Below, in pieces: positions 1 through 21,427 of a stretch of DNA of 21,427 nt. Within the stretch, counting starts at the first letter, position 1; each line of letters starts with the position of its first letter. Position numbers and translations under genes: made by a program. Under the pieces are notes generated by a model. That model searched no databases and was not told the origin of the DNA. It saw nothing but the letters and a program-made list of their open reading frames with translations. Source of the DNA: a virus. The stretch covers positions 1 to 21,427 of IMG/VR virus record IMGVR_UViG_3300025889_007807. The stretch is one strand, 5' to 3'.

Positions 1-1786
1 TAAAAGCATCATTAATATTAGTTTGACTATTTAATCCTACTACAGGTTTTATAAATCTCACTTCAGTATGTAAAATATCCATTTCATCTAAATTATTTTG
101 AGAGTCTACGGGATATTCTATATCAAATACAATAGCATCATTAGTTTGTGTAACAACAAAAGTATTTAAAGGTAGGGGCCTACTTGCTTTTCCTACTAGT
201 GTTATAGTTTTATAAACTGGAATACCTACTATTAAACCGTTTAAAGGTAAAATTCTTACTTCTAAAGAATAAGTATTTCCTGCTTTACCTAAATCAAGAT
301 TATTTATAGTAAAATTAATATTTCCATCTTCACCTGCTTCATTAGCGTCTACCATTATACTAGTATATTTAGTCATCCCACTAGGATGAGGGTCTGAACC
401 AGCTACTTGAACTATTCTGTAGCTAATATCATAGTTTTTAACATTTCTGTTTACTATGTGAGGAAACTCGACTAGAATTCTAGACATAATACCTTTAGTA
501 CGATCTCTAAATAGAGTTTCTGTTAAAGTTACGTCATCTTCTGAAACTTGTCCTAAAGGAGGATAAGCTGTTGCAACTGTTTGTACTATAGGAACACTTG
601 ATCTATTAAATTCATTTACAGCAGCTACTTTAAAAATAAAAATACCTGCAACAGCGGGTGTTTGTATTTTATTGTCTGTAAGGGCGACAGAGATAAAGTT
701 ATTATAATTAAAAGGAACTATAGTGTAAGCTCCTACATTAGAAAGCTCATAGCCTTTATCATACTTAGCAGCGTCGTATGTTAAAGTTACAGAATTAGCT
801 GAAGTATTTATGGCTGAAATATCAGCAATTAAATCTTCTGATATATTCATAATAATACTTTTACCTACTGAAGAGGCTATATTATCTGTAAGTTTAATTT
901 TAAAAAAGTCAGAAGAGGTAAGTGCAGCATTATAGGTAGGAGAAGAAGCAAGATATGAAACTGAGTTTATAGTATTAAGCTGTTCATTGTCTTCAATGTA
1001 TATTTCATCTTTAGCTTCAAACGAGGGAGGCTGATAATTTTCTACTGTAGTAATTATTTCAATATCGCTAGTAGATATATTATGTACAATGTAGTTATCG
1101 CCTGGAGACCATGAAAATTCTGTAATAGACTCTTCTATATAATTTCCATTTACATAACTACTTATTAGCCCTTTAGCAGGCGGGGTTACTCCTAAAGATA
1201 AGTTAGCTGTTCCAGATTCAGAAAGTACGTTATGTTTTCTAGCTTTAGTATTAAGAGTTCCAGAAGTATAAAAAGTATTGGAGCTAGAAATAGTAGGTTC
1301 TATTATTTGTTGTAGTTCTACATAGAAAGGAGCAGGTAAAAGTACGTTTTTTACAGTAGTAGCTACTTGCACACTTCCATAATCAATAGTTAACGTATTA
1401 GCTGTTAAATCAAACGAAGTCACATTAGTGCTAATTGAAACTAATGTAGAATCGTGTCCTACAGTGTCTGCTATTACTCCAGAAGTATTAGGGGCTGTTT
1501 TTACATTTAAATTATATTTTAAAAGATTATCAGGAGCCTGACCTCTAAGAGATATTAGTTGTGTATTATTTCTAGCCTCTAACAAATGACAGTCAAAGTT
1601 ATCATCATACATTAAATGAAGATTAGAAACTTCATAAATAATACTACTATTACTAAGGTGAGTACTTACAACTAGTGGTTTAACTGTGCCTAAATAAGAA
1701 GTAGCTCCATTTTTACCAAAAAGAGCAGCAGAAGGCTGTCCTGAAAAAGGACTTACATTTGCAGTTAACATTGTTATATTAGTCAT
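1..1786 (-). CDS. J-like tail tip/fibre protein, C-terminal half, with fibronectin-III-like regions (3' end cut by window)
   Basis: An open frame of 595 codons starts at ATG (1786-1784) and has no stop before the window edge, so the C-terminus is missing. The protein is rich in Ser, Thr, Asn and beta-branched residues, with no signal peptide or membrane segment. Around residues 425-560 it shows fibronectin-III-like features: a YDISYRIVQV strand motif, a TYSLEVRILPLNG strand motif, and a preceding YPPLGQV linker. In lambda J the hub part is followed by fibronectin-III domains and a host-binding C-terminus. Here the hub gene stops exactly where that region would begin and this gene takes over, so I infer it is the second half of a split J, projecting from the tail tip and probably contacting the host. 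The start overlaps the hub stop by one base (TAATG), with an AGGGG stretch 7 nt upstream, suggesting coupled translation. A separate fibre protein is the alternative. The identity is inferred from position and fold pattern, not from strong sequence identity. Confidence 0.72.
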   Translation of the reverse strand, partial: MTNITMLTANVSPFSGQPSAALFGKNGATSYLGTVKPLVVSTHLSNSSIIYEVSNLHLMYDDNFDCHLLEARNNTQLISLRGQAPDNLLKYNLNVKTAPNTSGVIADTVGHDSTLVSISTNVTSFDLTANTLTIDYGSVQVATTVKNVLLPAPFYVELQQIIEPTISSSNTFYTSGTLNTKARKHNVLSESGTANLSLGVTPPAKGLISSYVNGNYIEESITEFSWSPGDNYIVHNISTSDIEIITTVENYQPPSFEAKDEIYIEDNEQLNTINSVSYLASSPTYNAALTSSDFFKIKLTDNIASSVGKSIIMNISEDLIADISAINTSANSVTLTYDAAKYDKGYELSNVGAYTIVPFNYNNFISVALTDNKIQTPAVAGIFIFKVAAVNEFNRSSVPIVQTVATAYPPLGQVSEDDVTLTETLFRDRTKGIMSRILVEFPHIVNRNVKNYDISYRIVQVAGSDPHPSGMTKYTSIMVDANEAGEDGNINFTINNLDLGKAGNTYSLEVRILPLNGLIVGIPVYKTITLVGKASRPLPLNTFVVTQTNDAIVFDIEYPVDSQNNLDEMDILHTEVRFIKPVVGLNSQTNINDAF

Positions 1787-4278
1787 TATATAGCCCCTAG
1801 AACGTCTACAAAGTTAAAAGTAGGAATAAAAGCTTGCTGAATTTGTATTTGTGTAGCTTGGCTTTGTATATTAAATAAAAAATTTAAAATTGGATTGCCT
1901 GCTCCAGTATTAGTATATACCGGAGTAATAGAAAATATAGGAGGTGCAGGGCGAATTATAGGATTACTAATAGTTTTAATAGGAATAGGTTCAAAATTTA
2001 TAAGACTTTCACTATCTATATAAACCTCAGGCACATATTCAGTAGCAGAAATATTAGTTTCCCCACTAGTAGGCATAGAGATGCTATCTACTCTAAATAG
2101 TTTTGCAGCATTAGTAGAATAGTAATTAGAAGGATCTATTTCTCCTAACGCCCATAAATCTTTTTCTTTTGGAACATTATAAGCATCAAATCCTGTAATT
2201 CCTACAAAAGTATTAACAGAAGGATCCCATTTTTGTGTAGCAGTTACCTCTACATAGTCGTACCCAGACAGCTGTCCTTGTACGTTACCTGTAGTGGCAT
2301 AGGATACATCACCGACAGAATTACTTAGTATATATAATTCTGATTTTCCTGTATTATGGCTATAGTGTCGTAAAGCTAAAGGCAAACTATTAGCTTCGAA
2401 TACTGCATTTCCTATAGGCGGATATGAGATATGTTGAAGTTTTAATCTTAAATGATTAGTAACAGAGTCTTCTTGAATTAAACCATTGTATCCATAAATA
2501 GTACCTACTGTTTGAGTAGATAGAGCTACTATAGTTCCCGGAGATAAATCTGTTGTAGAAACAAAGGTAGAAAACTCTACACGTCTTTTCACATATTTTC
2601 TAGAAGCTAAGATGTATTGAGCAAATCTAATGGCCTCACTTCTTCTCGTACAGCCCATTAAATCTAAACTAACAGTACGTTCTTCTAAAGTTTCTGAGTC
2701 TGAATCATATATTTTTATAATATCTCTATCATAGTTATTGGCCCCGTCATAAAAAGAAACTTCTACAGAAGTAACATAATCGTCTAGTCGATTACCTGAA
2801 TAATTAACTTTTGTTAAGTTTACTTCATTAAACATTTGTTCTGGTAGAGAAAAAGGAACATCTAATACTATACCAACCTTATCATTGCTAATATTTAAAT
2901 ATCCTTTAGCAGATGCTAATATTTTGTTTATAAGATCATGAATCTCTATAGAATCAGTAACACTTATATCACATATAACTCTTCTTTCTTTTATTACAGA
3001 AGACGAACTAAGACCTATTTGATTCTCTAGAATAGAAGTAAATTGCCCTCTAGGTTTATGCCTAATGCTTCCGTCTGCATACGTTTCAATTCCTATAAAT
3101 TGACCCGTTTCAGGATCTACTGCATCAAATATTTGTGCTGCTTTGTAAAAGTTATACTTATCAATAAATCTTTCAGAAATTCCATAACCATAACTTGTAT
3201 TAGTAAGCAAATCATAAACTATCCAGGCAGGGTTTTGAGTCCAATCATATTTAAACGTTCCATCCCATATTCCTTTATAAATTTCAGGATTAGCTCCAAA
3301 CTGAATTGTTCCTGGATTAGATTGAAGCTCATAGCCTGTACTAGTAATATCATCTACTTCTACCTCTCTCCAATCAACTTCTCCATTAGCTAAAATAGGC
3401 TGACTATAATTAGAAGGCACTTTTACTATAAGACCTTTTATCAAACTGGTGTAATTGAGTACTGTTCCAGACCTAAGACCTGTTGCTTTTAGTGCGTAGC
3501 CAATACTAGCAGTTCTTGGATAACTAAAAGGTTGATGAGAAACTTCATTAAATCCTAAAAAAGAAACTTCAGAGCTTATTTCAGAATCTAAAGTATCGTC
3601 AGAACCTTTAAGAACTGATACTCTATAACCATTAGGACTTTGATTTTCAGTGGGTATACTAACAGGTATTTCAAGTTTAGTGTTAAAAGTAATAGTCTCA
3701 CTAAAAGAATGTTGTACTAAAGCAATATAATTATCTAAATTACTAGTTTCATTTCTGTCGTGCACTATTACTCGTAAATCAAGTCTTTGATTCTCTGGTC
3801 CTGTAGTAGCGTTATTATCTCCTGCTTTTCTGTATAGCTCTTCAATATCAAATCTAAAAACTAGAGTATCTATAGGCACGTCTTCTACTGTTGCAGAAGT
3901 AGGAAAAAATAACACATTTGCTTCTGGAACACCTGTAACAACACCATTTATCTGTCCAGATTTTAATACTACGGGAGAGGCGAATCTTATATTATTAACA
4001 ATTTCATCATTAAAAGGAGTTAAAACTTGTTGTTTTACACTTCCTGTAGTGCTTTTATATTGAAAAACATAAGGATCAGGCTCATTATCAGAAGTTATAA
4101 GATCATCAATAAATTTACCATCTATTTTTATATCTTGAACTCCGTTAGGATTTATCCTATATATAGGTCCTTCTCCAATAGCTACGTGACTAAACTGAAT
4201 ATCGGTATTTAGTTTAGTTAAGTCTTTTTCGAAAGTTTGATCTTGACCTACAGATAAGGTTAGAGTAGTAACAGCCAT
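1786..4278 (-). CDS. J: Tail tip attachment protein J, N-terminal hub part (lambda gpJ family)
   Basis: 830 residues forming the central tip hub. The alignment to lambda gpJ is recognisable by eye in several blocks. VKVPSNY is followed by YKGIWDGTFKYDWTQNPAW and YDLLTN..YGYG (about residues 335-366), matching the lambda block VPSNY...YSGIWDGTFK...AWCLWDMLT. LMGCTRRSEAIRFAQYIL (about 535-555), then RRVEFS and a PGTIV turn, match the lambda block FGCTSRGQAHRAGLWLI...VDFS...PGDVIEI. LFRVDSIS...ATEYVPE (about 726-750) matches the lambda block LFRCVSIREN...AVQHVPE. Lambda J continues for several hundred residues with fibronectin-III domains and the receptor-binding end (1132 aa in total). This protein instead stops about 80 residues after the last hub block, and the next gene supplies beta-rich sequence. 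Its start overlaps the gpI stop by one base (TAATG) and has no good Shine-Dalgarno sequence, so it probably depends on coupling. In assembly, J forms the base on which I, L, K and M act before the tape measure joins. Confidence 0.93.
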   Translation of the reverse strand: MAVTTLTLSVGQDQTFEKDLTKLNTDIQFSHVAIGEGPIYRINPNGVQDIKIDGKFIDDLITSDNEPDPYVFQYKSTTGSVKQQVLTPFNDEIVNNIRFASPVVLKSGQINGVVTGVPEANVLFFPTSATVEDVPIDTLVFRFDIEELYRKAGDNNATTGPENQRLDLRVIVHDRNETSNLDNYIALVQHSFSETITFNTKLEIPVSIPTENQSPNGYRVSVLKGSDDTLDSEISSEVSFLGFNEVSHQPFSYPRTASIGYALKATGLRSGTVLNYTSLIKGLIVKVPSNYSQPILANGEVDWREVEVDDITSTGYELQSNPGTIQFGANPEIYKGIWDGTFKYDWTQNPAWIVYDLLTNTSYGYGISERFIDKYNFYKAAQIFDAVDPETGQFIGIETYADGSIRHKPRGQFTSILENQIGLSSSSVIKERRVICDISVTDSIEIHDLINKILASAKGYLNISNDKVGIVLDVPFSLPEQMFNEVNLTKVNYSGNRLDDYVTSVEVSFYDGANNYDRDIIKIYDSDSETLEERTVSLDLMGCTRRSEAIRFAQYILASRKYVKRRVEFSTFVSTTDLSPGTIVALSTQTVGTIYGYNGLIQEDSVTNHLRLKLQHISYPPIGNAVFEANSLPLALRHYSHNTGKSELYILSNSVGDVSYATTGNVQGQLSGYDYVEVTATQKWDPSVNTFVGITGFDAYNVPKEKDLWALGEIDPSNYYSTNAAKLFRVDSISMPTSGETNISATEYVPEVYIDSESLINFEPIPIKTISNPIIRPAPPIFSITPVYTNTGAGNPILNFLFNIQSQATQIQIQQAFIPTFNFVDVLGAI

Positions 4279-4907
4279 TAAGGTATAACATCCTTTACTC
4301 TAAATACATCTGGATCACATCTATAACTTTTAGTATAGTTATTTATTAAAGTACCTGCTACTCTAACCATACCATAATGAAGGCCTATAGGTAAATTAGC
4401 ATTAGTATTTATTTGAAGTTCTCCAAAAGTATCATTATTTTTTCTAGTTCCTGCAGCATATACTTGCTCCGCCCTACCGAACAAAGAAGAATCTAAAATT
4501 CTTTTATCTAATCCTTCAAAATCAGAGGAATCTGTACTAGCAGTAGATAAACCAAATAAAGGATACATATAGCTAGATTTTATATCTTCATACAAATTAG
4601 AAAAGTTATAAGACTCAGAAGCTCCAAAAAATACAGGAGTTAAAGAAATTTTAGAGTTTTCTTTTACTGATAGCTTAAATTTAGTTACATCGATAACTTT
4701 AGAATCGTTAATAAACACAACATCTTGAAACTTAGTACTAGCATTTTTTAAGGTATTTAAAAGTTTTTCAAATTTAGGAAACATATTTTTAAGAGCTGAG
4801 TAAATATCAAAATAATCTATAGCGTCTAAAGATATTTCAGACCTATCATCAAAAAAAGACCTAAGAGGTTTATTAATATGTACAGTGACTTTCATTGAAT
4901 TTTTCAT
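4278..4907 (-). CDS. I: Tail assembly protein I (lambda gpI family)
   Basis: 209 residues with the bipartite gpI pattern. The N-terminus (about 5-95) is ubiquitin-like: KVTVHINKPL, a helix ending LKNMFPKFEKLL, then VVFINDSKVID and ISLTPVFFGA. The conserved C-terminal segment, NANLPIGLHYGMVRVAGTLI (about 169-188), matches lambda's QGNVMPVLYGEMRVGSRTIS. In lambda, I is needed to build the J-containing tip complex. The middle differs from lambda: the Gly/Ala-rich hydrophobic segment (about 50 residues there) is missing, replaced by polar, Ser/Tyr-rich sequence (about 96-165), so no membrane segment is seen. The start is uncertain. The ATG at 4907 has AAGG only 1 nt upstream, too close. Met5 (ATG at 4895) lies 13 nt from the same AAGG and gives MKVTVHINKPL, closer to the family N-terminus. 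The frame overlaps the upstream gpK-like gene by 35 nt (23 nt from Met5). Confidence 0.85.
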   Translation of the reverse strand: MKNSMKVTVHINKPLRSFFDDRSEISLDAIDYFDIYSALKNMFPKFEKLLNTLKNASTKFQDVVFINDSKVIDVTKFKLSVKENSKISLTPVFFGASESYNFSNLYEDIKSSYMYPLFGLSTASTDSSDFEGLDKRILDSSLFGRAEQVYAAGTRKNNDTFGELQINTNANLPIGLHYGMVRVAGTLINNYTKSYRCDPDVFRVKDVIP

Positions 4908-5250
4908 ACCTTTTTATGTTTTTTTCTGTGTCAAACCAGTAGATATAAAAATCTTTATTATTAAATAATATAAATTTTATATCAGTATAAATAGTTAACG
5001 ATAAATCTAACTCAGAAGGGGTTTTAAACTTTTCGTCTGTGTGAGAATGAAAAATACCCCAAATGTTATCATCATTTTCATTTATTATAATAGGATCAAT
5101 AATAAAACTGTGTCTTGGATTATTACTTATATTTTTACTAGGAATAAACTTAAAATCTAAAGTTATAATTCCACAAGACTCTAAAGGGTACTCGGATTGA
5201 GCATATTTTCCCATAGAAACTAGTAGAGAATTAAAGTCGGTTTCTAACAC
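4873..5250 (-). CDS. K: Tail assembly protein K-like, JAB/JAMM (Mov34/MPN) metalloprotease domain only
   Basis: 125 residues covering just the N-terminal half of a lambda gpK. The JAMM zinc-protease signature is intact: Glu24 in PLESCG, then H68-S-H70 and S79-E-L-D82. There are 8 residues between His70 and Ser79, one more than in lambda K. Lambda-type K proteins continue with an NlpC/P60 cysteine peptidase domain that acts on peptidoglycan. Here the protein ends about 43 residues after Asp82 with a charged tail, and no Cys/His peptidase domain is seen in the neighbouring genes. K acts at the tail tip during assembly, and a JAB domain may process a tail protein; the substrate is unknown. The start is GTG (5250-5248), supported by GGAGG 8 nt upstream. 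It overlaps the end of gpL by 20 nt and overlaps gpI at its own 3' end. Confidence 0.87.
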   Translation of the reverse strand: MLETDFNSLLVSMGKYAQSEYPLESCGIITLDFKFIPSKNISNNPRHSFIIDPIIINENDDNIWGIFHSHTDEKFKTPSELDLSLTIYTDIKFILFNNKDFYIYWFDTEKNIKRYEKFNESHCTY

Positions 5251-6997
5251 CTGGAAACCCTCCCCAGTTTACTAAGTTGTTTCTTAATCTACAAGCGGCT
5301 ACGCTTTTAGAACATTTATCTGCATTTCCGTCACTAGTTGAAGCATTATTAACAGTAAACATTCCATTTGCAGTTTTAGGAGGAACTGAACCTTCTATTA
5401 CTCCTACTCCTAATGCAGGATATTTACATTCTGGCCCTTTATATAACCAAGGACAAGTATTTCTATAAAATTTTCGTCTAGGCACTTCTTTTAGTAAGTT
5501 GGTAGTTCTATTACCTAAATTAAAACTTACAGAAGAATCATTGTAAGAGTTTAGTTTGTTAATAGTAAAAACTCGTTCTACATAAGCATCAGGATCATAT
5601 CTTTCATTATGGATTAAAAGTTTGTGTCCAACATTAAAAGGCAAAATAGGAGCTTGGTTTAATTCTATAAAATTATTACCATGAACAGCAACAATAGTTG
5701 CTGTAGAACTATTTACATTGCTATTTACTGTATCTCCTACTCTATAAGGAGCTGTAGATTCAAGTTTTAAAAAATTTCCATTATAGTATTGAATTATTGA
5801 ATATTCTGGCCAAAATTCTAAAGAAGAAGCATAAAAACTTCGTACCTCTACTACTGCTCCTAATAAATCTCTACTATCAGGTTTTAGAGATACCCATTCT
5901 TCTCCTAAAGCAGTAGTAGTTAAGTAATCATAAGGTTGAGTCTCTCCTCTAGTTTCTGCTACAGCCGAGTCATATTCTGATGAAGAAGGAACAGTACGAG
6001 GATCAATATTACCTCTAAAAGATCCATTAACAGAGGCAGATATTGCAGAAGTATTATTATATCCTACTAAATTAGGATCTTCTACTATTGTAGGTAAAAA
6101 TAAATCTATAGCACTTATTTCTAAATCTAATTCTCCTACAGAACCATCTGAACTAATAGAAATTCCAGGGTAGTTTATAGGAAAGGCTACATAGTTATTA
6201 CTTTGATGTGTAATACTATAGTCTTCTATTGAAAAATCTTCTCCTATTATTTCTGCGTATCTAAGAGGAAACTTGTAAGGCCACGGAGTTCCTATTGGGT
6301 TGCTCAAAGAGTTTTTAGGATTTCCATTTTCATCAGGAGGATACCACTCTCCAGGATAGTATATAGAGTACAGTCTGACCACAGGCTCTTCTTCAAAAGC
6401 GTTTCTATGAACTAAGTAATTAGAAGGAAAAACATTATTTATAGTACTAGAGGCTGCTTGTATCTGACTAGCACTAGTATCAGCCCCTATAAAGGATAAA
6501 TCATCTTTATCACCTGTTCTTACTTTTATTTCTAAAAGACTAATATCTTGAGTAGGAAAAGTAACAGTATTTGCAATAGCTCGATCGTTAGCCGCAGGAA
6601 AAGTTATAATATCTACGTCTTTAAAATCAATGCCCCCTTCGTTCAAAGTTGTACTAGGCCATACATACTTACTTGAGTCTACATAAACATTATCAACATA
6701 TACTTGAATTTCAGCTTTATGATTAGGAGTAGAGGGTAGAGCAAAAACACTATCATTACCAGTTACAGAGTAGCTAACAGAAGTATTAACAACAGAGTTA
6801 ACTGTAGAATAAGCTACTAAACTTTCATTATGTACAAAATAGTGTCTAGCGTTTGCTACTTTTACTTTTAAATTTGCGCCATCTATGCCTACAATTTCTC
6901 CAAAAGACAAAGACGTAGATCCTATAACAGAATTTCCTACATAAAAGGCATTAGAATTTGTAACTTGTAGTATAAAATCATAAGCACGAGAAGACAT
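5231..6997 (-). CDS. L: Minor tail protein L (lambda gpL family), Fe-S cysteine motif, greatly enlarged
   Basis: 588 residues against 232 in lambda. The C-terminus is diagnostic: RNTCPWLYKGPEC, then DKCSK..AACRLRNN and NWGGFPGV, matching the lambda motifs ANTCTWTYRGDEC, DKCSKCLSGCKFRNN and NFGGF. Cys515, Cys524, Cys562 and Cys569 correspond to the cysteines thought to hold an iron-sulfur cluster in lambda L. The core beta part is seen near YAEIIGEDFSIEDYSI and GELDLEISAIDLF (about residues 245-300). The extra length is an N-terminal extension of about 185 residues and insertions around 300-400 and 415-470. One small beta module occurs twice, at 18-62 and 418-465. L joins J, I and K in the tail tip. 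The start ATG overlaps the gpM stop by one base (TAATG), with GAGG 7 nt upstream. Confidence 0.92.
   Translation of the reverse strand: MSSRAYDFILQVTNSNAFYVGNSVIGSTSLSFGEIVGIDGANLKVKVANARHYFVHNESLVAYSTVNSVVNTSVSYSVTGNDSVFALPSTPNHKAEIQVYVDNVYVDSSKYVWPSTTLNEGGIDFKDVDIITFPAANDRAIANTVTFPTQDISLLEIKVRTGDKDDLSFIGADTSASQIQAASSTINNVFPSNYLVHRNAFEEEPVVRLYSIYYPGEWYPPDENGNPKNSLSNPIGTPWPYKFPLRYAEIIGEDFSIEDYSITHQSNNYVAFPINYPGISISSDGSVGELDLEISAIDLFLPTIVEDPNLVGYNNTSAISASVNGSFRGNIDPRTVPSSSEYDSAVAETRGETQPYDYLTTTALGEEWVSLKPDSRDLLGAVVEVRSFYASSLEFWPEYSIIQYYNGNFLKLESTAPYRVGDTVNSNVNSSTATIVAVHGNNFIELNQAPILPFNVGHKLLIHNERYDPDAYVERVFTINKLNSYNDSSVSFNLGNRTTNLLKEVPRRKFYRNTCPWLYKGPECKYPALGVGVIEGSVPPKTANGMFTVNNASTSDGNADKCSKSVAACRLRNNLVNWGGFPGVRNRL
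5259..5263 (-). promoter_or_regulatory. Strong ribosome binding site of the K-like gene inside the end of gpL
   Basis: GGAGG (reading the minus strand) lies 8 nt upstream of the GTG start at 5250. It is the best Shine-Dalgarno match in the window and decides the non-ATG start. The same bases are gpL codons for Trp-Gly-Gly-Phe in its conserved C-terminal motif. Confidence 0.8.
5603..5746 (-). repeat. gpL internal domain repeat, copy 2
   Basis: Residues 418-465, with the pattern Y-R-V-G-D-T-V, S-S-T-A-T-I-V-A-V-H-G-N-N, A-P, then N-V-G-H-K-L and H-N-E. It shares spacing and most key residues with copy 1 (18-62), but the DNA is diverged, so the duplication is old. It lies inside the L core, shortly before the Fe-S cysteines. 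Confidence 0.6.
6812..6946 (-). repeat. gpL internal domain repeat, copy 1
   Basis: Residues 18-62 of the L-like protein. The pattern is Y-x-V-G-x-x-V, a short Ser/Thr-rich loop, I-V-x-x-x-G-x-N, A at about +31, then H-N-E-x-L. It aligns with residues 418-465 of the same protein. The 'VGxxVxGxTS...GxIVxxxG' pattern resembles small beta modules common in phage structural proteins. The function here is unknown. Confidence 0.6.
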
Positions 6998-7377
6998 TAC
7001 GCTACCTCTATGAGCACTAGAGTTATATTATAAATATCAGTATTATCTCCAGAAATTACATGATTTATATTTAAATTTTCAGAAAATTTAACATTTGCTG
7101 TTCCTGAAAGACCAAAATGTGCCAAGTCTAACTTAAACGTTTCAAAATCTCCTCCTCTATCTAAATAAAATGCTTCTATATTATCTTTTCTAGTTTTACT
7201 GATATTTGTATAGCTAAAAGAAAAAGTTCTAAGTACTTTTCTAGATAATCTTTTTCTTTTCTCGTAGCCTAAAATAGAACTAAAAGTAACATTTTTAGGG
7301 GCTCTAGTAATACTATAGCCCCTGTCTGGTTTTCTATCTATCATTGATGCGTCGTCTGGATATGTATATGTTGTCAT
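6997..7377 (-). CDS. M: Minor tail protein M (lambda gpM / phage minor tail family)
   Basis: 126 residues, close to the usual 110-130. The pattern fits gpM: DRGYSITRAPKNV near residues 18-30, a Lys/Arg-rich strand (KRKRLSRKVLRTFSFSYTN), a helix with KTRKDNIEAFYLDRGGDFETF (lambda: LESFLEEHGGWKSFLW), and a C-terminal strand pair ending YNITLVLIEV. gpM stabilises the tail tip after the tape measure has been built in. Its position between tape measure and L is the lambda order. It starts 6 nt after the tape measure stop, with only a weak GAG-type ribosome site 4 nt before the ATG. By sequence alone it could also be placed in a neighbouring minor tail family of the same size; the gene order favours M. 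Confidence 0.82.
   Translation of the reverse strand: MTTYTYPDDASMIDRKPDRGYSITRAPKNVTFSSILGYEKRKRLSRKVLRTFSFSYTNISKTRKDNIEAFYLDRGGDFETFKLDLAHFGLSGTANVKFSENLNINHVISGDNTDIYNITLVLIEVA
7005..7008 (-). promoter_or_regulatory. Ribosome binding site of the L gene
   Basis: GAGG on the minus strand lies 7 nt before the gpL ATG at 6997. It sits in the last sense codons of gpM (Ile-Glu-Val-Ala-stop). Together with the 1-nt stop/start overlap it suggests coupled translation of M and L. Confidence 0.65.
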
Positions 7378-7383
7378 ATTACT

Positions 7384-10300
7384 CTACTTTATTTTTTTAA
7401 TGCTCTTTTTAATAGGTCCGTTAGTTCTTAAATCTTTAAGAACTACATCTACTACTATTTTGCCATCAATCATACTAACTTTTGGCTCTGTTTCAACATC
7501 TACTGGAGAACCATTATTAGTAATATTTACTTCAACATTAGTATCTCCTTGTGGAAGTTGCCCTGTATTATTTATATAGTCTAAAGTATTTACCCCCACA
7601 TTGTCAACAGCTGAATTTCTAACAATATACTCTCCGTCAGAAAGCATTGCCATGATAGAATCGCTTAGACCTGTTCCAGGACCTGAAATCAATCCTCCTG
7701 CTGCATAACCAGAAATACCAAATTGTTTTGCAAGAGCTCTGCCTTCTGCAGTAATATTAGACGTACCTACTCCCCAAGTATTCCAAATACGAGAAGCTAA
7801 AGTGCTCCAATCATTTTTTCCGTAATTACCTTCTAAACTTGCAGGGTTACCCAAACCAGAAGCATTAACAGTACTGTTCCAATCATTCCAATCGTAGCCA
7901 AACTCAGAATAATTGTTTTGATTACTACCCCATGCCCCCCAAGGATGATCTCCTATTCTAATCCAGTTCTTATGTTCATAATTTAGTCCTTTGCCTTTTG
8001 CATAGCTTGCACCTCTAATAAGAGCAGATATTGCGTAGCCTATAGTCTCGTTTGCATTATAACCATATAGGAAACTAGACGCATTATTACTATACAACCA
8101 TTGAGGCCATCCATCTGAGTTTTTACCCGACCATAAATCAAGATAATTATCTTTAGAGTTTTCTAAAGTAGTCACGGATGTTGTATCTGGGGTTGGAGGT
8201 CTATCATCAAAGAAAAACTCTTTAAGGCCTGTTAAAGGGTTTTTAGAACCTGCTCCTCCCATAGATTTTAATAGACTAGCTTCTAGAGAGTTAATATGCG
8301 CTAACTGTGTATCTCCTTTTCTACCTAATGAGGCTATAGATCCTGTAGCGTTAAGAGTATCTAACACATCTCTTCCTAAGTTTTTAGCAGATTCAGCTTT
8401 AATTACATACTCTCCATTTGACAGTCTAGCAGGAATTGAATCACTAGTAGAAGTACCAGGACCTGTAACAGGACCCCCTGTTGCCAAAGTTACTGCTTCA
8501 GCGCCGCTATATTTATAACGTGTTCTGTTTGTTGCTGTATTTGTTATAACACTATCTAAGTTGTCAGAAAGATGATCTAAGTTATCAGAAAGATGATCTA
8601 AGTTATCAGAAAGATGATCTAAGTTATCAGAAAGATGAGAAATCTTGTTGTCGAAAGCAGCAGACATAACAGAAGTATCCTCGTCCATAGTTTTTAAGAA
8701 TGCACTGTTAGTAGCTATAGTTTCTAAGTATACTACCATATTATTTAAATCTGTGTGCATAAATTCTAATTCAGCTTTTATAGATTTTAAATACTCATCA
8801 TTAGCATATTTTACTTCATCATATATACCAGGAAGGTATAAAGCATAACCATTCAAAGTTTTAAATTCTGCTAAACTATCAGTAATAAGAGTATTAATAG
8901 CATCTAAATTATCGGAAAGATGATCTGAGTTGTCAGAAAGATGATCTAACTGAGTTTCTACATTATCTGTGTGTGATTCAATTTTTGTAAGCTTGTCAAC
9001 ATTTACAGAAGTATTTGTTTTAATATTTGCAGTATTAGCTTTAATATCTGCTAAATCTCCTAAAGAGGTAATTATATCTTTTATATAAGCAGTATTTTTT
9101 AATTCAGCTTCATAAAAACCTTTTGCCGCAGCTTCCATATTTGTTAATTTTTCACTAGATACTTTAGTGTAACCAGCTATATTTTGAAGGTGATCTTGAG
9201 CATTTTTAAGAAAATCATCTTGCTTGACTATAGCATTTACAACACTTGTCATTTCTGTTTCAAAAGTACCACCTACATCTATCTGTACAGCGCTTACATC
9301 ATATAAATCTCCTGCTGAAATTTGTGATTTCTCAACACTCCAGAAATTAGCTCCTTTTATAGCACTTTGAGTAGGGTTAAAGAAAGAAGCTCCGGTCTTA
9401 CTGGTAGGATCACCAAGCGTATAAAAATCTGACCCTGATTTGTCTACTGCCTCTATTTTAAAAGCTTTACTTGCATCGACTGTATATTGTGAGCTGCCTA
9501 AACTTAAATGATTTCCTGCGTGGAAAAATAGTTTTCCATCTATCTTAAGAACGTCTGCTGCTTTAGCTATATATCTATTTTCATCTAAATGATCTAAATC
9601 AATTAAGTCTGATCCTTCGACTTTAACATTATCAACTGTAAAAAAGTCAGTAGCCTCTTTTGTTACTTTATTTAGTATATAAAGATTATTGGCATCTATA
9701 CTTTGAGGCACAGAAGCAAGCTTGAACAGGCTACTGCCATCTACATCCATCTTTTTTATTGTATACAGAGCATCTGCAGAAACAGGTTCTGGAGCTATTA
9801 AGGCGAATAGCTCCTCTCCTTTTATTTTATCTTCTGGATCTATTGTAAACCAAGTATCCCATTTCATACTTTCTTTGTCGCTAACGGCAGGAAGCTTAAA
9901 GAAAGTTTTGTAATCAATATCAGTTAAGTCTACACTAAACATATCTTCATATGTTAATCTCATTGTATCTAGAGTAAATTTATCACCATCAAAGTTTTCA
10001 AAAATATGCCCTGTTTCAAGTACTGCTTTATTTGCTAAGCCTTCTTTTAGTTTATCTACATCTATAACTTGTGCTACGCTAACTATAGCTTTAGTCCAGT
10101 CAAACTCTCCACTAGCAAAATTACTAAAAATATCTCCTAATTCCATAGCCATTTTTTCTGTAGGCATTTGGAAAACATCACTAGCTTTAGGTTTGATTTT
10201 AGAAGTAGTATCAATTGTAATTAATTCCGAAGCATATACATCATCAGGAGTTATATCTATTAATTCAAGACCCATAACAGTGTCTTTGCTAATGGTAAAT

Positions 10301-13300
10301 AGTTCTAAAGCACTTTTAGTTGCTTTAGTTATCTCAATAAACTCATCTATACTTTTAGATACAAGCTTAAAGAAAGTTGTATAATCAACCTCTTTAGCTT
10401 TTGTAAGGAAGAAATAGTCTGCATCCGTTTCTATTATATCTAGTTGATAAAAATCTTCTGCGTCTTTAGTAACTTTACTGATAGTTATTAACTTATCAGA
10501 CTCTACAGTAACTGGATCAATATGATCTGTAAGAGTTATTTTATCTTCAGGGTCAAAGAAGTCAGAGTACTTAACTGCTACTTTACCTATAGTAAACCAG
10601 TCCTGATAATCTGTATCTAATTTAGTAGCTACGTTATACCACATTTGTGCTGTATGATCACTTTTAGTAGGTAAATTATACCATGTATCAATAGAATGAT
10701 CAGTCTTATCGGGGGAATTAAAGAAAGTTTGATAATTAGCACTGGTTTTAGTTATATTGATCCAATCAAAAAATCCAGTTTCTTCATCGACAATAGTAAG
10801 CCAATCACTAAATTTAGTATCTATTGTTGTATACTCATTAAACCATTCATCAAATTGAGTATCTATTTTTGTATAATCATTAAACCATTCATCAAATTGA
10901 GTATCTATAGCAGAAATATTAAATAGATAAGGACCGCCTCCTACATCTAACGAAGTAACAGATACAGGAACTATATCAAAGAAGAAAGAATAATCAACTT
11001 CAATAGGCTCTACTAAATAGAAATGATCAATACTTACTACTTTAGGCGTTACAATATAAAAATAATCTGCAGGTTTTGTTATAGGCTCTCCAACTTGGAA
11101 TAGCTGACCTGCCGTGCCTAGAATATCTAATCCAGAAGTAACAATAGGAGTTACATTAGGAGTAAGACTTGTGCCCCCTCCTGTAGTAGCTCCTCCTCCT
11201 GTAGTTGTAGAGGCATTTCCTCCAGTAAAGTTAGATACTATGGCTGCATAAGTAGGTAAGACTCCTCCTTGGAAAAGGAGTGTGTCTTCTAATACGGTTC
11301 TAATTTGCTCTAAGAGTTGGTTTGTATAGAATAAGTAACCAGGACTAGAAACACCTAGTCCTTTAGATAAAATGTCTTGTAAAATTGCATTTTGAGCAGT
11401 TATTAATGGATTATTAGCTTGTAGAACTCCAGAAGGCTGAGAACCTCCTCCCGTTACTGTACCTACTATGCTTGTTGTAGAACCACTAGTTGCTTGATTG
11501 CTTATAGTTAAAGGGTTTTGAAGTAATGCGATTGCATCAACTATAAAAGCTTCAAAAGTTTTATCTATATCTGCTATATTATTATTACCCATAACACCTA
11601 GTAAGCCAGTTAAAGTAGCTTCTAAGTCTGTGAGTTCTGTATTTAATTTATTAAATTCATCTATAGGTAAAACAGGAGTTACTGCCGAGATAGAGCCATA
11701 GAGATTTTCATAAGCTACTTTTGCGTTTATTATATTTTCAAAATTAGTTAGTACTCCTGCTAGTTCTGACAATTGAGAAGGAGTATTATCTGAAACCTCT
11801 ATAGTTACTTGATCTGTAGGATTATTAATAATATCCAACACATCTATTATCTCTTGTACTCCTGTAGCATTAACATCTGCTATTGCTGTTTGAATATCTG
11901 CAAATGCTTGATTTGCTTTAGTCATTTCATCTATAAATTTAGTTACACTTAAACTAGTATCATCTATAGCTGTAACCGAATCAACTAATCCAGGAGTAAA
12001 ATTATTAGTTAGTGCGCTATTAAAATCATCAAAAAGCACATTAGCTTCATTAAATGCATCTCTGGCAGTCAAAGCTCTAGACACTAAATCTTGAGCTACT
12101 TCTGTAATAGTTAAATCTATGTCTTTAAGACCTGCATCTAGATTATTAAAATTAAGTTCTTCTTGAATTTTTAATAAGTCTAAAGTAGCTTTCTGTAAAT
12201 CTGCAGGGTCTTTAACTTCTGTTCTTCCTGATCCCTCTATTTGGTTATTAATATCATCTATTTCAGAAAGTTTTCTACTAATTTTTACAAACTTATCAGC
12301 AGAGTCGGGTAACGCTTCTAATGCTGTTAATTCTGCTAAACTGTTAGCTAAATTATCTTGAAGGGAAGATAAAGGCTGTACTGTATCTATATCTCCTAAA
12401 GCCACTAAGCCTTCTGTTACGTCTATTTGAAGTTGTTTTAAATACTGATCTAAACCAGAATAACCTTTGTATTGAGGATCTAATTCATTTACAATATCAT
12501 CAATTCTAGATATATGTCCGTCAAGGTATCCTCCAGCATCTACAAACGCTTGTTGTGCAGAGAATAAAGTATTATAAAGTGTTTCTTCTGCGTCTGTTTG
12601 CTGTGCTACAGCGTCTTGATACATACTTTTTACATCAGCCACAGAGCCTTTATATGTATCTACAAGAGATTTAAGTAGATCTTCTAACTCAACAGCAATA
12701 GATTTGAAAGAATCATTTAAAGAATTTTTAAAACTATCCATTTCGTTTTGAGCATCTGAAAATGCTGATCTTAGATTACTAAATAAATCTAAGAAATCAG
12801 TAAAAGACGACTGTAAAAATGAAAATCCTTGAGCATACTGCTCCATATTTATATCTTCTGAGTTTACTAATTGATAATTAAGTTCACCTATGGCGGTAGA
12901 AAGATCTGCAATACCTGCTTGTCCAGACTTTGCTTTTACTCCAAAATCTGATAAAGTATCTACAAAATTTCCGGAAAGAAGACTAATATCTTCAAATCCT
13001 ATATTTTGAAAATCACTAACTACAGAAGCACTAAGAGTTTTAGCAACTTCTCCAGAACCAGAAACTAAAGCATTATAAAAACCTACGAGACTTTGTTCAA
13101 AGTCTCCAAAAGACTTAGATACTACAACAATTTGTCTAGCTGCTAATTCTACTTGAGCGTATCCTTGAACAGTTGCATCTACTATAGCATCAGTGGTATT
13201 TTTAATAACTTTAAGCTGTTCTTCGCTAGCCTCTTTAACTAAATCTTTTCTTTCTTGTTCAAATACTGTAAACACTCTTTTATAGGCTTCAGCACCTTCT

Positions 13301-16300
13301 ATAGCATCTATAAATCCGTCCTCTACTGCATCATCTATAGTAACCATACCATCTTCAAAAGCATAAACTATTTGCCTAGTAGCAGCAATTATGCCTGAAG
13401 GATCTAAAGCTGTGTCTTGTAAATCTAAAAAGAAAGATTGATATTCTTTCATTTGAGCAATAGCAGTATCAAAATCAGAAGTAAGATCGTCTAATACAGA
13501 ACCATAAGATGTTCCTGTAATAGCTCCTTGAGACAATGCAATATTCATTTCACTTATAGCTGCTTGTAGATCACTAGCAGTAACTGCAGAAGTTTCAACA
13601 TTGTAATAAAAAGACTCTAAGCTATCAGAAAGACTAGACACACTTTCATCACTAAAATTAATACTGGCACTAGCCATAACTTGTTTTGCAGTATTTTCAG
13701 CAAGCATCATATTTAAAGCTTCTGTAGCAGTAGTAGCTGTAGTTAGTCCTGCAGCCATATCAAAAGTTGCAAGAGCAACATTAGTCGCTCCTTTTTGCAT
13801 CTCGCCTAATACAATATTAAGAGAGGCAATCGCCTGGGACGCTGCTCCTGAATCTTGTTGTATTTGTATGTATTGTTCAAACAATTCATTATTACTTTGT
13901 GCTACAATTTCTCTAGCTTCATAGGTTTCTAAAGTCAAGGTTACGTCTTGGCTAAACTTTTTAAACGCTTCTTGTAGTTCTGGAGATAAAGCAATAGTAG
14001 CTCCTGCCCCTCCAAACTGTTCTAATTTGTCAGGAGCGATTACCCCTGTAACAGGAGCAACATTAGGATCAGTACCGCTTACTAGTTTTTGAACTCTTCC
14101 TTCGTTGATACCCGCTAGCACTCCTAGTCCTACGTTATCTACTGCTTCTTTATTAACTACAAATTCACCAGGCATTAGTAGTGCGGGCACTGAATCTTTA
14201 TTTTGTTGTTCGGGAGTACCGGGTACGAATCCTCCAGTAGCAAAAGTTAGCCCTCTACGAACGTTTCTAGAGCCTCTTTGTGCTTGAGTAAGTTGTTTAG
14301 CTCCGTCAAATATATTATTCATAACGCGTCTAGTTAATTCAGCATCTGCTGCAGCCTTCATAGCTGCGTTACTAAATTCTTGGCCAGCACTTGATAATTC
14401 ACTTAAAGCTCTAAGTTCTACATCAGTAGCCTCTCTAATTATCTTATCTCTTTGAATAGCTAAAGCTAACTCTGCTTCTTTGATAAAGTCATATCCATTA
14501 CCTAATTCTTCTTGAATAAAAGCTGCATCTCTTACTATTGCATGTTGATACTTTAAAACGTTTTCTAAAGAGTCTATCACATCCGTTTCTAATGCTCCTC
14601 CAAATCTAGTAGCATCATTTATAGCTTCTCCAAAATCAGTAGCTAATTGTTTTATTTTTAATATAGTTCCTTCTTCTATGATACGTGCTGCTTCTTCAGC
14701 CTCAATCCCAGAAGCTATTAAAGAGTCGGCAAAGGCTTCTGTTTCTGCTCTAGCAGATATAAAGGCCATCTCCATATTAGAAAGCATAAAAGCTTGTTCA
14801 TCTAAAAGTCTTACTGTTCCGTCTTGTGCTATATTCAGACCTGCGTAAGAAAGAACTAAGTTTTGAGTAGCGTCTCTAGCTCTGTCTACTTGAGTAGAAG
14901 TTTCTCCAAATACCTTTGATGCTTCTTCGATAAGATCAAAAGCTTCTTGAAGGGCGCCTTCTGCCACAGCCTTACTAGAGGCTACTACTCTATCATATAA
15001 AGTCTCTGCATAATCTACAGCACTATCAAAATTTCCTACTACTACTTCAAGTTGGGTAATTAAATCATCAAAACCTCTAGCAAAATTTAACTTCTTTAAA
15101 TTCTCTTCTACTGCCTCATTAAAGTTAATATTAGCTATGGCATCTTTAATGTCCTGACTTAAAGAGTCAGGATCGAATCCTTTTATTAAAGCTTTAAATA
15201 CGTCTTTTCCAAATTTTTCTGCGTCTGTACCTATTTGAATAACTTGGGAAGCTGCACCTCCTCCTGAAATACGTAAGTCTTTTTGTTTTACATCTCCACC
15301 TCTTTCTACAAAACTAGCCTTAGCACTCGTAAAACGAGTATCTTGACCTACAACAGCTTCTAATGCATTATTAAGTTTGAATACGGCGTCGCTAACTTGG
15401 ATAAAATTGCTACCATACTTACCTCTTGTAGTAGTATCTCCAGTAGCTAAATCAGTGGTAGAGCTGCTCCATGTTCTGCCTGCAAATTGTTTTCCAATCC
15501 AATTTATAGCTCGATTAATGCCCTTTTCTAGTGCTCCTCCGGTAAAAAAGTCTATCGCCGTACTCACAAGAGCTCCTATAGGAGAAGTAAAGCTTATTAT
15601 AGTCTTTAATCCGTCTTTTAAAAAGCCTGATACAACAGGGGTCAAAGACTTAGCAAAAGAAGCACCAGCTAAATCTAAAATTCCTACATCATCCCTTTGT
15701 GCTAAATTATCAGCTATAGCAATTTCAGCACCAGGACTAATAGCACCAAATCTTTCAAACCCTTTCAATGTGCGAATAGAAGAAGAAATAATTTTTCCAG
15801 TATCCTCTATTACTCCTTGTAAGGCGGTTCCATTTTCCGTAGAGGTAGTCGCCTTAAAGCCGCTGATAAGAATTCCGCCAAGACCTTTTATAGCGTCTAC
15901 TACAGGATTAGCCACCATTCCCACAGGATTTTGCATAGCTCCCATTAAATTGCCCATCGAGGAAAAAGCGTTTGCGAGACCGGTAGTAAGACTTGTTATG
16001 GCAGACATAGAGTTTCCTAGTTTACCTAATTTAATCATATGTTCTGAGATTTTGTAGGCTATAGAATCTTCTGCATCCGCTAAATCTGCTAATGCTTGTT
16101 CGTGATTATTAATAGCAATAGTAGTTTCTAAACTAGCAATGGCTAAATCAGCTTCAGCTACGGCTCTAGCAACAGAGGCTTCTTTTAAAGAATCTGCTTT
16201 TTCATCTAAAGTAGTAAAACTCTTAGCAAACTCTTCTTGCGTTCTAATGTAAGAAGAAGCATCTAATTGTCTAACAGAGTCTATTAAGTCTCTTTCTAAA

Positions 16301-19300
16301 TCTCTACGACGCTCTAATACTTCTACGGTAGCTTCTAATGCTGATCTTTCTTGATCTCTTAAATTTTTTAGTCTTTCTAACGCTTGAGATTCTTTAGCTT
16401 TTGCTCGTTCTAATTGCTCCTCTGCGGTTTCTATTTCTTTTTTAATTTTGCCCGTAGTCATCTCTTGTATTAACATACCCGAAGCAGCAATAGTTTGAAA
16501 GGATTTTTGAATAAGCTCTTGTTGTTGTCTAAAACGCTCCATGTTAGCAGCTTTTTTTGCGTTTTCGTTTTGTATTTTTGTAAGTTCAGCTTGTTGATCT
16601 AGATTTTTAAGTTGTAAATCATTTAATTCACTTTGTGCTGCAAATTTTTGTACCATTCCTGATCTTTCAGCAGCTAGAATATCTTTTTCAAACTTAAACT
16701 GTTTACCTAGAAGTGAAATTTCTTCTTTCTTATTTTTAATAGCAGTCTCTGCAGCTTGGGCCTCTATTGCCGCTACTGCAACCGCTGCGTTGTGATCTTG
16801 AGTTAGGGTATCTGTCTCTAATGCTTGGATAAGATCTAAAGTGCTACCTTGAGCACTACTTTGAGCATGTTCATCTACATAATACGTAGTAAGATTGTTT
16901 GCAGCAGTTGCAGAATTGTCTAATGATTTTGTTAAATTGTTGACCGCTGATTGAAGTCCTGGATCAACTTTACCTTCTCCATATCCAACCGTCGGTGCTA
17001 CTACTCCTGCTGCTCCTGCTGCTTTTGCTGCATTATATGCCGCAAGCCCCTCAGGAGTCAGCTCTGATTCGTTTGCACCACCACCGCTGGGACCTGCGCC
17101 TCCAGCTGTTATTGCTACTCCATTCTTCAAAACTTCTGCTAAACCAACTATATGACTATTAAAAGATTTGCTCAGACCCTCTACATGGTCCATCATAGCT
17201 TCTTTCATGGCTTGTACGTCTTTAAATCTTTCTCGCTGCTCCTGCTGAGTCATTTCTAAATTTTCTCTTGCAGCATGTTGTTGAGCAGACAGTAATTCTT
17301 GTTCTTTAGCAGACAGAGCTTTCTCTTGTTCTAATATACTAAGCTCTCCACGGGCTTGGAAAAGAGCTATTTCTTTTCTTGCTTTTAGATCTGCCTCTCT
17401 TGCGCTCATTTCTGCTTCTGCAAGAGCTACTTCTGCGGCAAATATTTGTTCTTGAAAATCTATTTTTTGTCTGTCAAGATCATAAAGAGCATCTACATTT
17501 TTAGCATTATTTTCAGCAATTAATTTATCCTGATCTCCTACTTTAACATCTAAAGCAATATCGCCTAGATCAGCTATCATATTTAATATATCAATAGTTT
17601 TTTCATCAAAAATAGTAAGTTCTTCATCTAAAGCATCTCTTGCAAGAGATATTATATCTTTTTGAAATCTGAGTTCTTGTTTTACTCCCTCTACTCTAGC
17701 ATTTGCTATGCTAGTTTCTAGATTTAAGGACTCTTTACGAGCATCAAATACTCCTTGTTCTATCTCTAATACTTCTTTAGTAGTTCTAAGTCTTGTTATA
17801 TCTGCTTTAAGTTGTAGCTGCCTGTTATTAGCTTTCATACCCATTAGCTTTAATTCTTGTTGCATTTCAGCTCTGTCTGCAGCTAGTTGAGCTTTAGCAA
17901 TAGCTATTTCTGCTTGTAGTCGAGCTTGAGTATTTTCTTGAATAGCTTTTTTAAGTAGCTTATTAAGTTCTTTTTCTTGATCTCTAATAGCCTGTACTTG
18001 CTGGTATAAAATACCTAAAATTGCTTTTTCAATAAATTCTCTATTTTTTACAAGCTCAGTAAGAGTTTTTTGTTCTAATCCTAACTCTTTCATAGAGGCT
18101 AATGCTTGCTCAGTAGGAGCAAATATATTAGTTTCTTCATCAAAAGTTCCAAGACCTTCAGCAGCAAGATTTCTAAATTTATTTTGTAAACTATTTAACT
18201 CATTCAACTGACCTTTTAACACATTTATTTGATTAATGGTTCTTTGCATAGGAGTAGCTGCTACTTCTATTCCATTAGCCGTTTCTACAAAAAATCCTTT
18301 TAAATCAGCATTTATCATCTGATCTGCGGCGCTTTTAAACTCTTTTTGAATATTATTCAAATGTGCTAAAGTTTTTGCCGCTTCATCATATCCAGCACTT
18401 AAACTTTCTACAGCTGTTTTCTGCTGATTAAGCAGAGCAGTAGATTGGCTCAACACTGTTTGTAATTCATTTCTATCTTGTATTGTTCGACTAAGAGTAT
18501 CTCGTAAGCCCTCATTACCAGGGTCTGAGGTTAACTGTGTGAAAAGTTCGTCAATTACCTTACCATAATTTTCTAGAGATGTTGTGCCTGATTCTATAAA
18601 ATTTTGTAAATTGCTTTGTGCAGTTTTTAAAGACTCTATAGAAGTAACAAACTCTTCTAGTCCTGTAGAATTATCTGATAAAACTTTATCTGAATCAGTT
18701 AATGCTGTTACAAATCCTACAACATTAGGAATAGCTGCTGCTGCAGCCGCATTAAGTAGCCTAAATCTGCCTCCTGCCATAGAGACTCCTATATCTACTC
18801 CTCCTATACTAGCTATAAGATCATCACTAGAACCTGCAACTTTATTAAAAGTTAAGGCTAAATCAGCACTCTTGTCATTTAGTTCTGTTAGACCTTGAAT
18901 AGTTTGACCACTTTGTCCTGAAATTCTAGCTAATGTTCCTACAAACTCTACTTGTGCGGCTGTAGTGCTAGCTAAAGCTCTTTCAAAACCTTTGAGAACT
19001 TCAATTTGTTGTAATAAATTTAAATCGCCTGTATTATTAAATTGTTCTTGTAGAGCATCAATGTCATTACCTAGTTTTCTTATAGCAACATCCATGTCCT
19101 CTACAGCATTTGAAACTCCAAAGAAATATTCGGCTACAGAATTTACTAATCCTTTAACTTTAGAGTCGTAATCAAATGCTTTGGCGAGCCCTACTTCGAA
19201 TATCGCACCTACACCAACAGCTAATCCTGCTATGCCTGCTGTCGTTGCTGCAAAGGCTCCAGTTAATGCTGTTGCTGCTGTTGTTAATCCTCCTAGAACA

Positions 19301-21141: not shown

Positions 21142-21155
21142 TCATTTTCTACCTT
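21138..21155 (-). promoter_or_regulatory. Translation start region of the tape measure gene (TTG start abutting upstream TGA)
   Basis: On the minus strand AAGG (21155-21152) is followed by an ATG (21145), the chaperone-like stop TGA (21144-21142) and TTG (21141). The ATG is 6 nt from AAGG but opens an 8-codon dead-end frame. TTG is 10 nt from AAGG and opens the 4585-codon frame. The upstream gene and the tape measure share a reading frame, with this TGA as the only stop between them. Confidence 0.6.
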
Positions 21156-21427
21156 TACTTTTAGATTTTTGCTGTTGTTCTTTTTGTTTTTTAGAATAGT
21201 GTTCAGAAGTTTCTTGAACTAACACTGATAATAAAGTTAAAAACAACATTTCATCTTGAACTTCGTGAATGTCCATAAATGTTCTAAGACCAGAATAATC
21301 TTTTCCTAACCATGTGCCACTCATACCAGCAACACTATCAGGTAAAAGATTAAATATTGCTAATGCAATTTGACTCTCATAAGCTAAATCTGAATAGTCT
21401 ATAGGTATTTCTGACTCTATAGGCGTA
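21142..21427 (-). CDS. Tail assembly chaperone-like protein, C-terminal part (5' end cut by window)
   Basis: The frame is open from the window edge to TGA at 21144-21142: 94 codons plus stop. An internal ATG at 21324 would give 60 residues, but the frame stays open for 34 codons before it with plausible sequence (IPIDYSDLAYESQIALAIFN), so I read this as the end of a longer protein. It continues LPDSVAGMSGTWLGKDYSGL, FMDIHEVQDEMLFLTLL, and ends in a Lys/Gln-rich tail. I do not recognise the family from sequence alone. The position directly before the tape measure is where lambda G/T and similar chaperones lie; these coat the tape measure until tube subunits replace it. In many phages that product comes from a programmed frameshift, and any slippery site would lie outside this window. 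It is in the same frame as the tape measure gene, separated only by TGA. Confidence 0.6.
   Translation of the reverse strand, partial: TPIESEIPIDYSDLAYESQIALAIFNLLPDSVAGMSGTWLGKDYSGLRTFMDIHEVQDEMLFLTLLSVLVQETSEHYSKKQKEQQQKSKSKGRK

Follow-up and report, generated by a model that had tools for sequence, protein, structure and literature searches.

A tandem array of 13- to 14-residue aromatic units within the giant tape measure protein of an environmental virus

The locus and its repeat array

The DNA analysed here (21,427 bases, in the following called the window) is the environmental virus record IMGVR_UViG_3300025889_007807. Its minus strand carries the end of a tail assembly chaperone gene, followed by the genes of a tape measure protein (TMP), of a small protein at the position of lambda M, of proteins similar to lambda L, K, I and J and of one further protein (Table 1). 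The subject of this report is a tandem array of short units with paired aromatic residues within this TMP. The array occupies a slot between coiled coils, directly before the C-terminal coil and the tip domain. A sequence-only reading of the window had located such a repeat in residues 3346-3957 and it is indeed found there. The protein itself is recognized as a TMP by its matches to known TMPs, including phrog_3779 and PDB chains of T5 pb2, and its gene lies 3' of the tail assembly chaperones and 5' of the tip genes. The TTG start codon (21141) stands directly 3' of the chaperone stop codon, an arrangement that is shared by the relative G006.

The aromatic residues (F/W/Y) of the tract show an autocorrelation with z = 7.9 at lag 13 and z = 8.1 at lag 14, compared with 1000 shuffles of the same composition, whereas lag 11 (z -0.4) and lag 7 (z -2.2) are without signal. 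The proposed periodicity of 13 thus exceeds that of shuffled sequence, and it is neither 7 nor 11. A strict period of 13 does not hold, since the unit spacing is a mixture of 13 (19 times) and 14 (nine times) with a few other values, giving a mean of 13.3 over 30 steps of 11-15 residues. Also the phase is not coherent across the tract, for which Fourier analysis yields several peaks (12.75, 14.35) but no single period. As positive control the same statistics were run on the TMPs of TP901-1, where lag 11 was recovered (z 6.4), and of P74-26, where the best value (z 4.8 at lag 12) stays well under the 8.0 of the window.

Segmentation with a unit profile yields 36 units and not the 40-46 estimated before, because a non-unit block (~3666-3724), a second gap (~3850-3885) and a few irregular steps interrupt the array. 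The unit consensus reads [TDS]-[KP]-[IV]-[DT]-[VIK]-[DS]-[AGYF]-[DS]-[DE]-[FLW]-[FY]-[NT]-[ILV]. A profile derived from one half of the tract scores higher on the other half than on each of 1000 shuffles, in both directions, and higher than on every other stretch of this TMP. In all three tracts lysine (z 6-8) and proline (z 4-8) are enriched at column -2, and as this column lies outside the 10-column profile the unit is not a mere artefact of picking aromatics. One might argue that an Asp/Phe-rich stretch of chance or drifting low complexity is simply read as a repeat, since similarity between the units is weak and some of them are irregular. With none of 1000 shuffles performing as well in either cross-validation, and with length and motif conserved in relatives at a dN well below dS (see below), this explanation was rejected and is hardly conceivable.

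Tandem TMP units with tryptophan or phenylalanine at fixed positions are known from siphophages as repeats of 11 or 11-11-18 residues (Belcaid 2011, PMC3271669; TP901-1, PMC5099701). Such units are gained and lost, and their deletion shortens the tail (PMC3271669, PMC5099701). The window array likewise consists of tandem units with a fixed aromatic position, but its units have 13 or 14 residues and are marked by an aromatic pair instead of a single residue, and they occur together with a T5-type tube and a lambda-type tip. With 612 residues it is longer than the aromatic repeat region of TP901-1 (347 residues; PMC5099701). No sequence match to the known aromatic-marked TMP repeats was found, and the array is best read as one of their kind with a period, a length and a sequence of its own.

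Table 1. Features of the window with their positions and the basis of their assignment
Feature	Positions	Strand	Basis
Tape measure protein (TMP), 4585 aa, TTG start abutting chaperone stop	7384..21141	-	phrog_3779, 3547, 6090 tail length tape measure; PDB T5 pb2 E 1.2e-21
Aromatic 13/14-residue repeat array, residues 3346-3957, ~36 units	9271..11106	-	autocorrelation, unit profile; kept in L009-L012
Array, first block	10147..11106	-	landmark-based block count
42-bp tandem repeat, 2.4 copies, 94% match, 14-codon unit IDTQFDEWFNEYT	10810..10908	-	DNA repeat
Non-unit spacer, ~residues 3666-3724 (MELGDIFSNF...), conserved; two copies in G007	9970..10146	-	unit segmentation and relatives
Array, second run of units, residues 3725-3957, irregular gap near 3850-3885	9271..9969	-	unit segmentation
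Coiled-coil segment following array, residues 3958-4215	8497..9270	-	hydrophobic moment and proline content (see text); AF2 helix (low confidence); coiled-coil Pfam matches
TMP C-terminal domain, GGxVxGPGT..SIPA.LS.GEYV motifs, kept in sister TMPs	7387..8496	-	PDB 8zdo TMP match at residues 4475-4525
TMP N-terminal region, T5 pb2-like, residues 18-473	19723..21090	-	phrog_3779 E 3.5e-43; T5-like phage TMPs; PDB 7zhj over residues 25-309
Tail assembly chaperone, C-terminal frame, open at window end	21142..21426	-	phrog_3914; homologues in relatives
Small protein at lambda M position	6997..7377	-	no family match (Pfam, PHROGs)
Minor tail protein, lambda L-like	5231..6997	-	PF05100 E 6.9e-20; phrog_18
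Lambda K-like protein, JAB domain	4873..5250	-	PF14464; phrog_30
Tail assembly protein, lambda I-like	4278..4907	-	phrog_32 E 2.5e-6
Central tail protein, lambda J-like	1786..4278	-	PF13550; phrog_31 E 1.9e-65
Protein downstream of J, open at window end, ~1100 aa in relatives (L007 from 7386)	2-1786	-	no Pfam or PHROG match

Relatives, selection and duplication

Relatives with the aromatic array were found via a search with the C-terminal domain and not via the tract, whose sequence gave no match among viral contigs, phage records, Pfam and PHROGs; the tract alignment gave none among GTDB genomes and the PDB, and among viral contigs only loci that were already known. Two further candidates were discarded: a weak unit-profile hit in L080 proved to be noise on reading by eye, and the aromatic-rich region of L058, considered as a divergent array, lacks the 13/14 period.

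Within the tract the identity to the window amounts to 55% in L010 and L011/G006, 48% in L009/G004 (partial tract) and 28-30% in L012/G007. The comparison with G006 gives a nonsynonymous divergence (dN) of 0.36 and a synonymous divergence (dS) of 1.37, from which the tract is evidently under purifying selection. Seven indel columns occur across 612 residues, aromatics are retained at 88% of positions within the tract and at 66% upstream, and the highest identity is found in the unit columns 3, 6 and 7. The length of the first block is almost constant (320 residues in the window, 321 in G006, 319 in G007), a count between two conserved landmarks that is independent of gap placement.

In the first block of G007 a 26-residue insertion and deletions including 13 and 12 residues, near whole units, are seen if compared to the window, with gap placement uncertain at this identity. 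The second block of G007, including the spacer, contains an internal duplication of 307 residues (score 261 against a shuffle maximum of 66), which makes up most of the extra length of this TMP (4985 residues, against 4585 in the window; tract 913 against 605). In the window itself the 42-bp DNA repeat marks a recent duplication of a 14-codon unit.

The slot in sister proteins and the tail tube

Most TMPs are without clear units (PMC3271669), so whether tape measures have units and what one unit corresponds to are open questions that the sister TMPs sharing the C-terminal domain help to address. In four of them (L016, L018, L019 and L021) the slot contains a 27-residue tandem array with the consensus TNTDSSVDQINLVNTNINSALSNVNFV. 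L004 has an array with a period of 26.65-27 residues there that differs in sequence from the L016 type, and L015 and L017 have no array. These arrays comprise up to ~30 copies (L016 aa 2642-3180, frame 2; L004 aa 180-1010, frame 1), and no published description of them was found in the literature searched. Homology of the sister TMPs to the window TMP ends upstream at about residue 3035-3090 and weakly resumes just past the tract. For the downstream coil, L017 matches marginally (score 72, shuffle maximum 67), and L015 and L016, each taken by itself, give no significant match. Among the TMPs with 27-residue arrays, which are 56-79% identical, the array lengths differ by 27 or 54 residues with one exception of 52. 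The sister arrays share with the window array the slot, a similar length and, where the tube gene is present (it was not found on the L004 contig), the tube family, but they differ in the doubled period and in the absence of proline-rich junctions. Homology between the aromatic unit and the 27-residue unit is not detectable (score 66 against a shuffle maximum of 83).

The tail module had been taken as lambda-type, which is correct for the tip genes only. The N-terminal region of the window TMP resembles T5 pb2 (E 1.2e-21), and the tube protein of close relatives matches T5 pb6 structures (E 7e-32). The window ends before the tube gene, but the pb6-like protein is present in G012 and G013, whose TMP N-terminus is nearly identical to that of the window, as well as in G006 and G007, and it is conserved at 56-92% across phages with the aromatic array, with the 27-residue array or without any. 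By gene content the tail is a hybrid, in which a lambda-type tip (L, K, I, J) is combined with a T5-like TMP N-terminus and, as seen from relatives, a T5-type tube. T5 pb2 with 1219 aa is shorter than the window TMP, and no similarity between pb2 and the array was found. On the 82-kb phage contig G006 (L098-L102) the portal, the tube and the TMP N-terminus are likewise T5-type and the L-K-I-J tip is lambda-type; this contig also encodes its own DNA polymerase and ribonucleotide reductase.

These sister TMPs bear on two further explanations. The units could be docking motifs for the tail assembly chaperone that coats the TMP until the tube replaces it, with the period reflecting chaperone spacing. 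Chaperones coat TMPs in lambda-type assembly, the acidic, motif-like units resemble short linear motifs, and for phage p2 a complementary aromatic periodicity in the TMP chaperone was suggested (PMC5099701). However, on reading by eye the two chaperone frames show homology and little difference in length, regardless of whether the TMP has an aromatic array, a 27-residue array or none, and so no array-specific chaperone is apparent. This is a modest argument, and we regard chaperone docking as distinctly unlikely. Alternatively, the tract, being rich in aromatics, could act after ejection by lining or spanning the periplasm or the inner membrane so that DNA can pass. It lies in the C-terminal third of the TMP near the tip, and TMPs exit the tail during infection, with channel formation by them having been proposed (PMC8718954, PMC10721106). 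Yet with 12% Asp the tract is very acidic and not transmembrane-like, and in sisters with 27-residue arrays or without array the tube and the C-terminal domain are of the same kind but the tract is missing; a role after ejection is thus very improbable.

An α-helix rises 1.5 Å per residue and 27 residues correspond to 40.5 Å. The height of a tube ring is 40.6 Å in T5 (PMC8718954) and 40.25 Å in P74-26 (PMC10034513). The 27-residue repeats, if helical, would fit one ring per unit, and because of this agreement with the T5 ring the slot looks like a unit-quantised tape. The TMP of HFTV1 is helical over residues 2-316 (PMC12494034), from which we computed ~28.6 residues per ring over 11 rings. 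The aromatic unit of 13.3-13.5 residues equals one ring only near 3.0 Å per residue, i.e. almost extended, and half a ring as helix; as either conformation can be brought into agreement with the ring height, such numbers carry little weight for the aromatic array. They would allow the docking of each unit to one position of the tail tube, but the firmer match to a ring is that of the 27-residue arrays in the sister phages. For the whole tape of 4585 residues a tail of ~610-740 nm is extrapolated from the proportions in T5 (1219 aa for 40 rings of 40.6 Å) and in Gordonia phage Hotorobo (TMP gene of 9,984 bp, tail ~540 nm; PMC4982279).

It is tempting but rather doubtful that two unrelated unit tapes in one slot serve to measure a single T5-type tube family, namely helical 27-residue units of one ring (40.5 Å) and near-extended aromatic units (13.4 x ~3.0 Å) whose aromatic pair would dock once per ring. 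If so, tail length would shift in whole-ring steps via unit duplication and part of the ruler would not be a coiled coil. Related giant TMPs, with one tube family where its gene was found, carry in one slot 27-residue arrays with mostly whole-unit changes, aromatic arrays with units of 13.4 residues or none. This is a natural experiment on whether each tape unit matches one ring of the tube, and on whether some part of a tape can be other than coiled coil. As several natural states of one slot are available, this comparison may be the more valuable result.

Local structure and possible role of the array

The hydrophobic moment of the tract peaks at 120-130 degrees (110-130 in relatives) and that of the downstream coil at 100-110, and proline amounts to 3.3% and 0.4%, respectively. 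A coiled coil, with a moment near 100 degrees and low proline, is thus not what the tract resembles, and a coil of period 7 or 11 was rejected by autocorrelation, moment and proline. As claimed before, the TMP, encoded beside the L-K-I-J tip module, contains a regular array that is unlike the coiled coils on its two sides. The moment peak and the models described next speak against a canonical coiled coil, and locally a chain of short turns is the most likely structure.

AlphaFold2 (AF2) modelling of 691 residues with five sequences gave a predicted local distance difference test (pLDDT) of 26.8, and its longest helices fell into the coil that follows the tract. For six units, modelled with 32 rows derived from the repeat, the pLDDT was 44 and most motifs received a short helix at low confidence. 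No stack, as once envisaged, and no solenoid is seen in these low-confidence models, in which the whole tract is without fold and the six units show single helical turns. The models contain no ordinary continuous helix in the tract, but no confident unit structure either.

The tract could nevertheless be a strained α-helical bundle with the aromatic pairs packed in its core, where 13.4 residues (20 Å) would span half a ring; it would then be the aromatic equivalent of the helical arrays of 27-residue units. The relation 27 = 2 x 13.5 and the Fourier peaks of the sister arrays at 13.45-13.5 speak for it, as do the spacing i, i+3, i+4 of the conserved columns 3, 6 and 7, the predicted helical turns at most motifs and the helical HFTV1 tape mentioned above. 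But the moment does not peak at 100 degrees, prolines reach 3.3-5.3%, notable positive hydrophobic autocorrelation is absent at lags 4 and 7, a long-range phase is not seen, and AF2 gives no continuous helix in the tract though it does so in the coil just downstream. We hold such a bundle to be unlikely.

We consider it somewhat probable that the array is a non-canonical, unit-built and length-constrained section of the tape in a T5-type tube, grown by duplication of units and blocks and making periodic aromatic contacts. Single units and larger blocks would be duplicated in tandem and give the ruler a constrained length. We infer that the array sits within the tube, flanked by the usual coiled-coil tape on one side and by the C-terminal tip domain on the other, as a semi-extended chain of short helical turns that, unlike the flanking tape, is probably no continuous coiled coil. 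In each unit the conserved column 3 (small or aromatic) and the aromatic pair (columns 6-7) may touch, again and again along the array, either other TMP copies on the tube axis or the wall of the tube. The TMPs of HFTV1 and of lambda, which has L, K, I and J tip genes, also lie inside the tube with the C-terminus at the tip, and in the available parts of the two reports (PMC12494034, PMC10721106) these tapes are helical coiled coils where resolved and a 13-residue array is not described.

Several points weigh against this interpretation. A rigid ring register is doubtful because the phase is not coherent along the array. The aromatics need not be essential, since one aromatic repeat of TP901-1 was replaced by alanines without much effect (PMC5099701). 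The low pLDDT values may likewise reflect disorder or an oligomer that is obligate. The relatives are few and are metagenomic fragments, not isolates. Finally, constant length is expected of many domains and not of rulers only.

Outside the array, a GG-x-V-x-GPGT...SIPA-x-LS-x-GEYV module occurs three times in the TMP (residues ~2301-2347 in mid-protein, ~4215-4260 and ~4479-4530); it recurs in numerous TMPs, among them those of mycobacteriophages and PDB 8zdo. Residues ~4330-4470 are rich in Trp, Tyr and Asn (WPQWLYSNNASSFLYGYNANET...FGYDWNDWNS) and strongly conserved in L012, with no family match above threshold. In the coil 3' of the array a near-perfect 21-bp tandem repeat (window 8554-8638, minus strand, 4 copies, 98%) encodes DHLSDNL heptads and is a recent heptad expansion.

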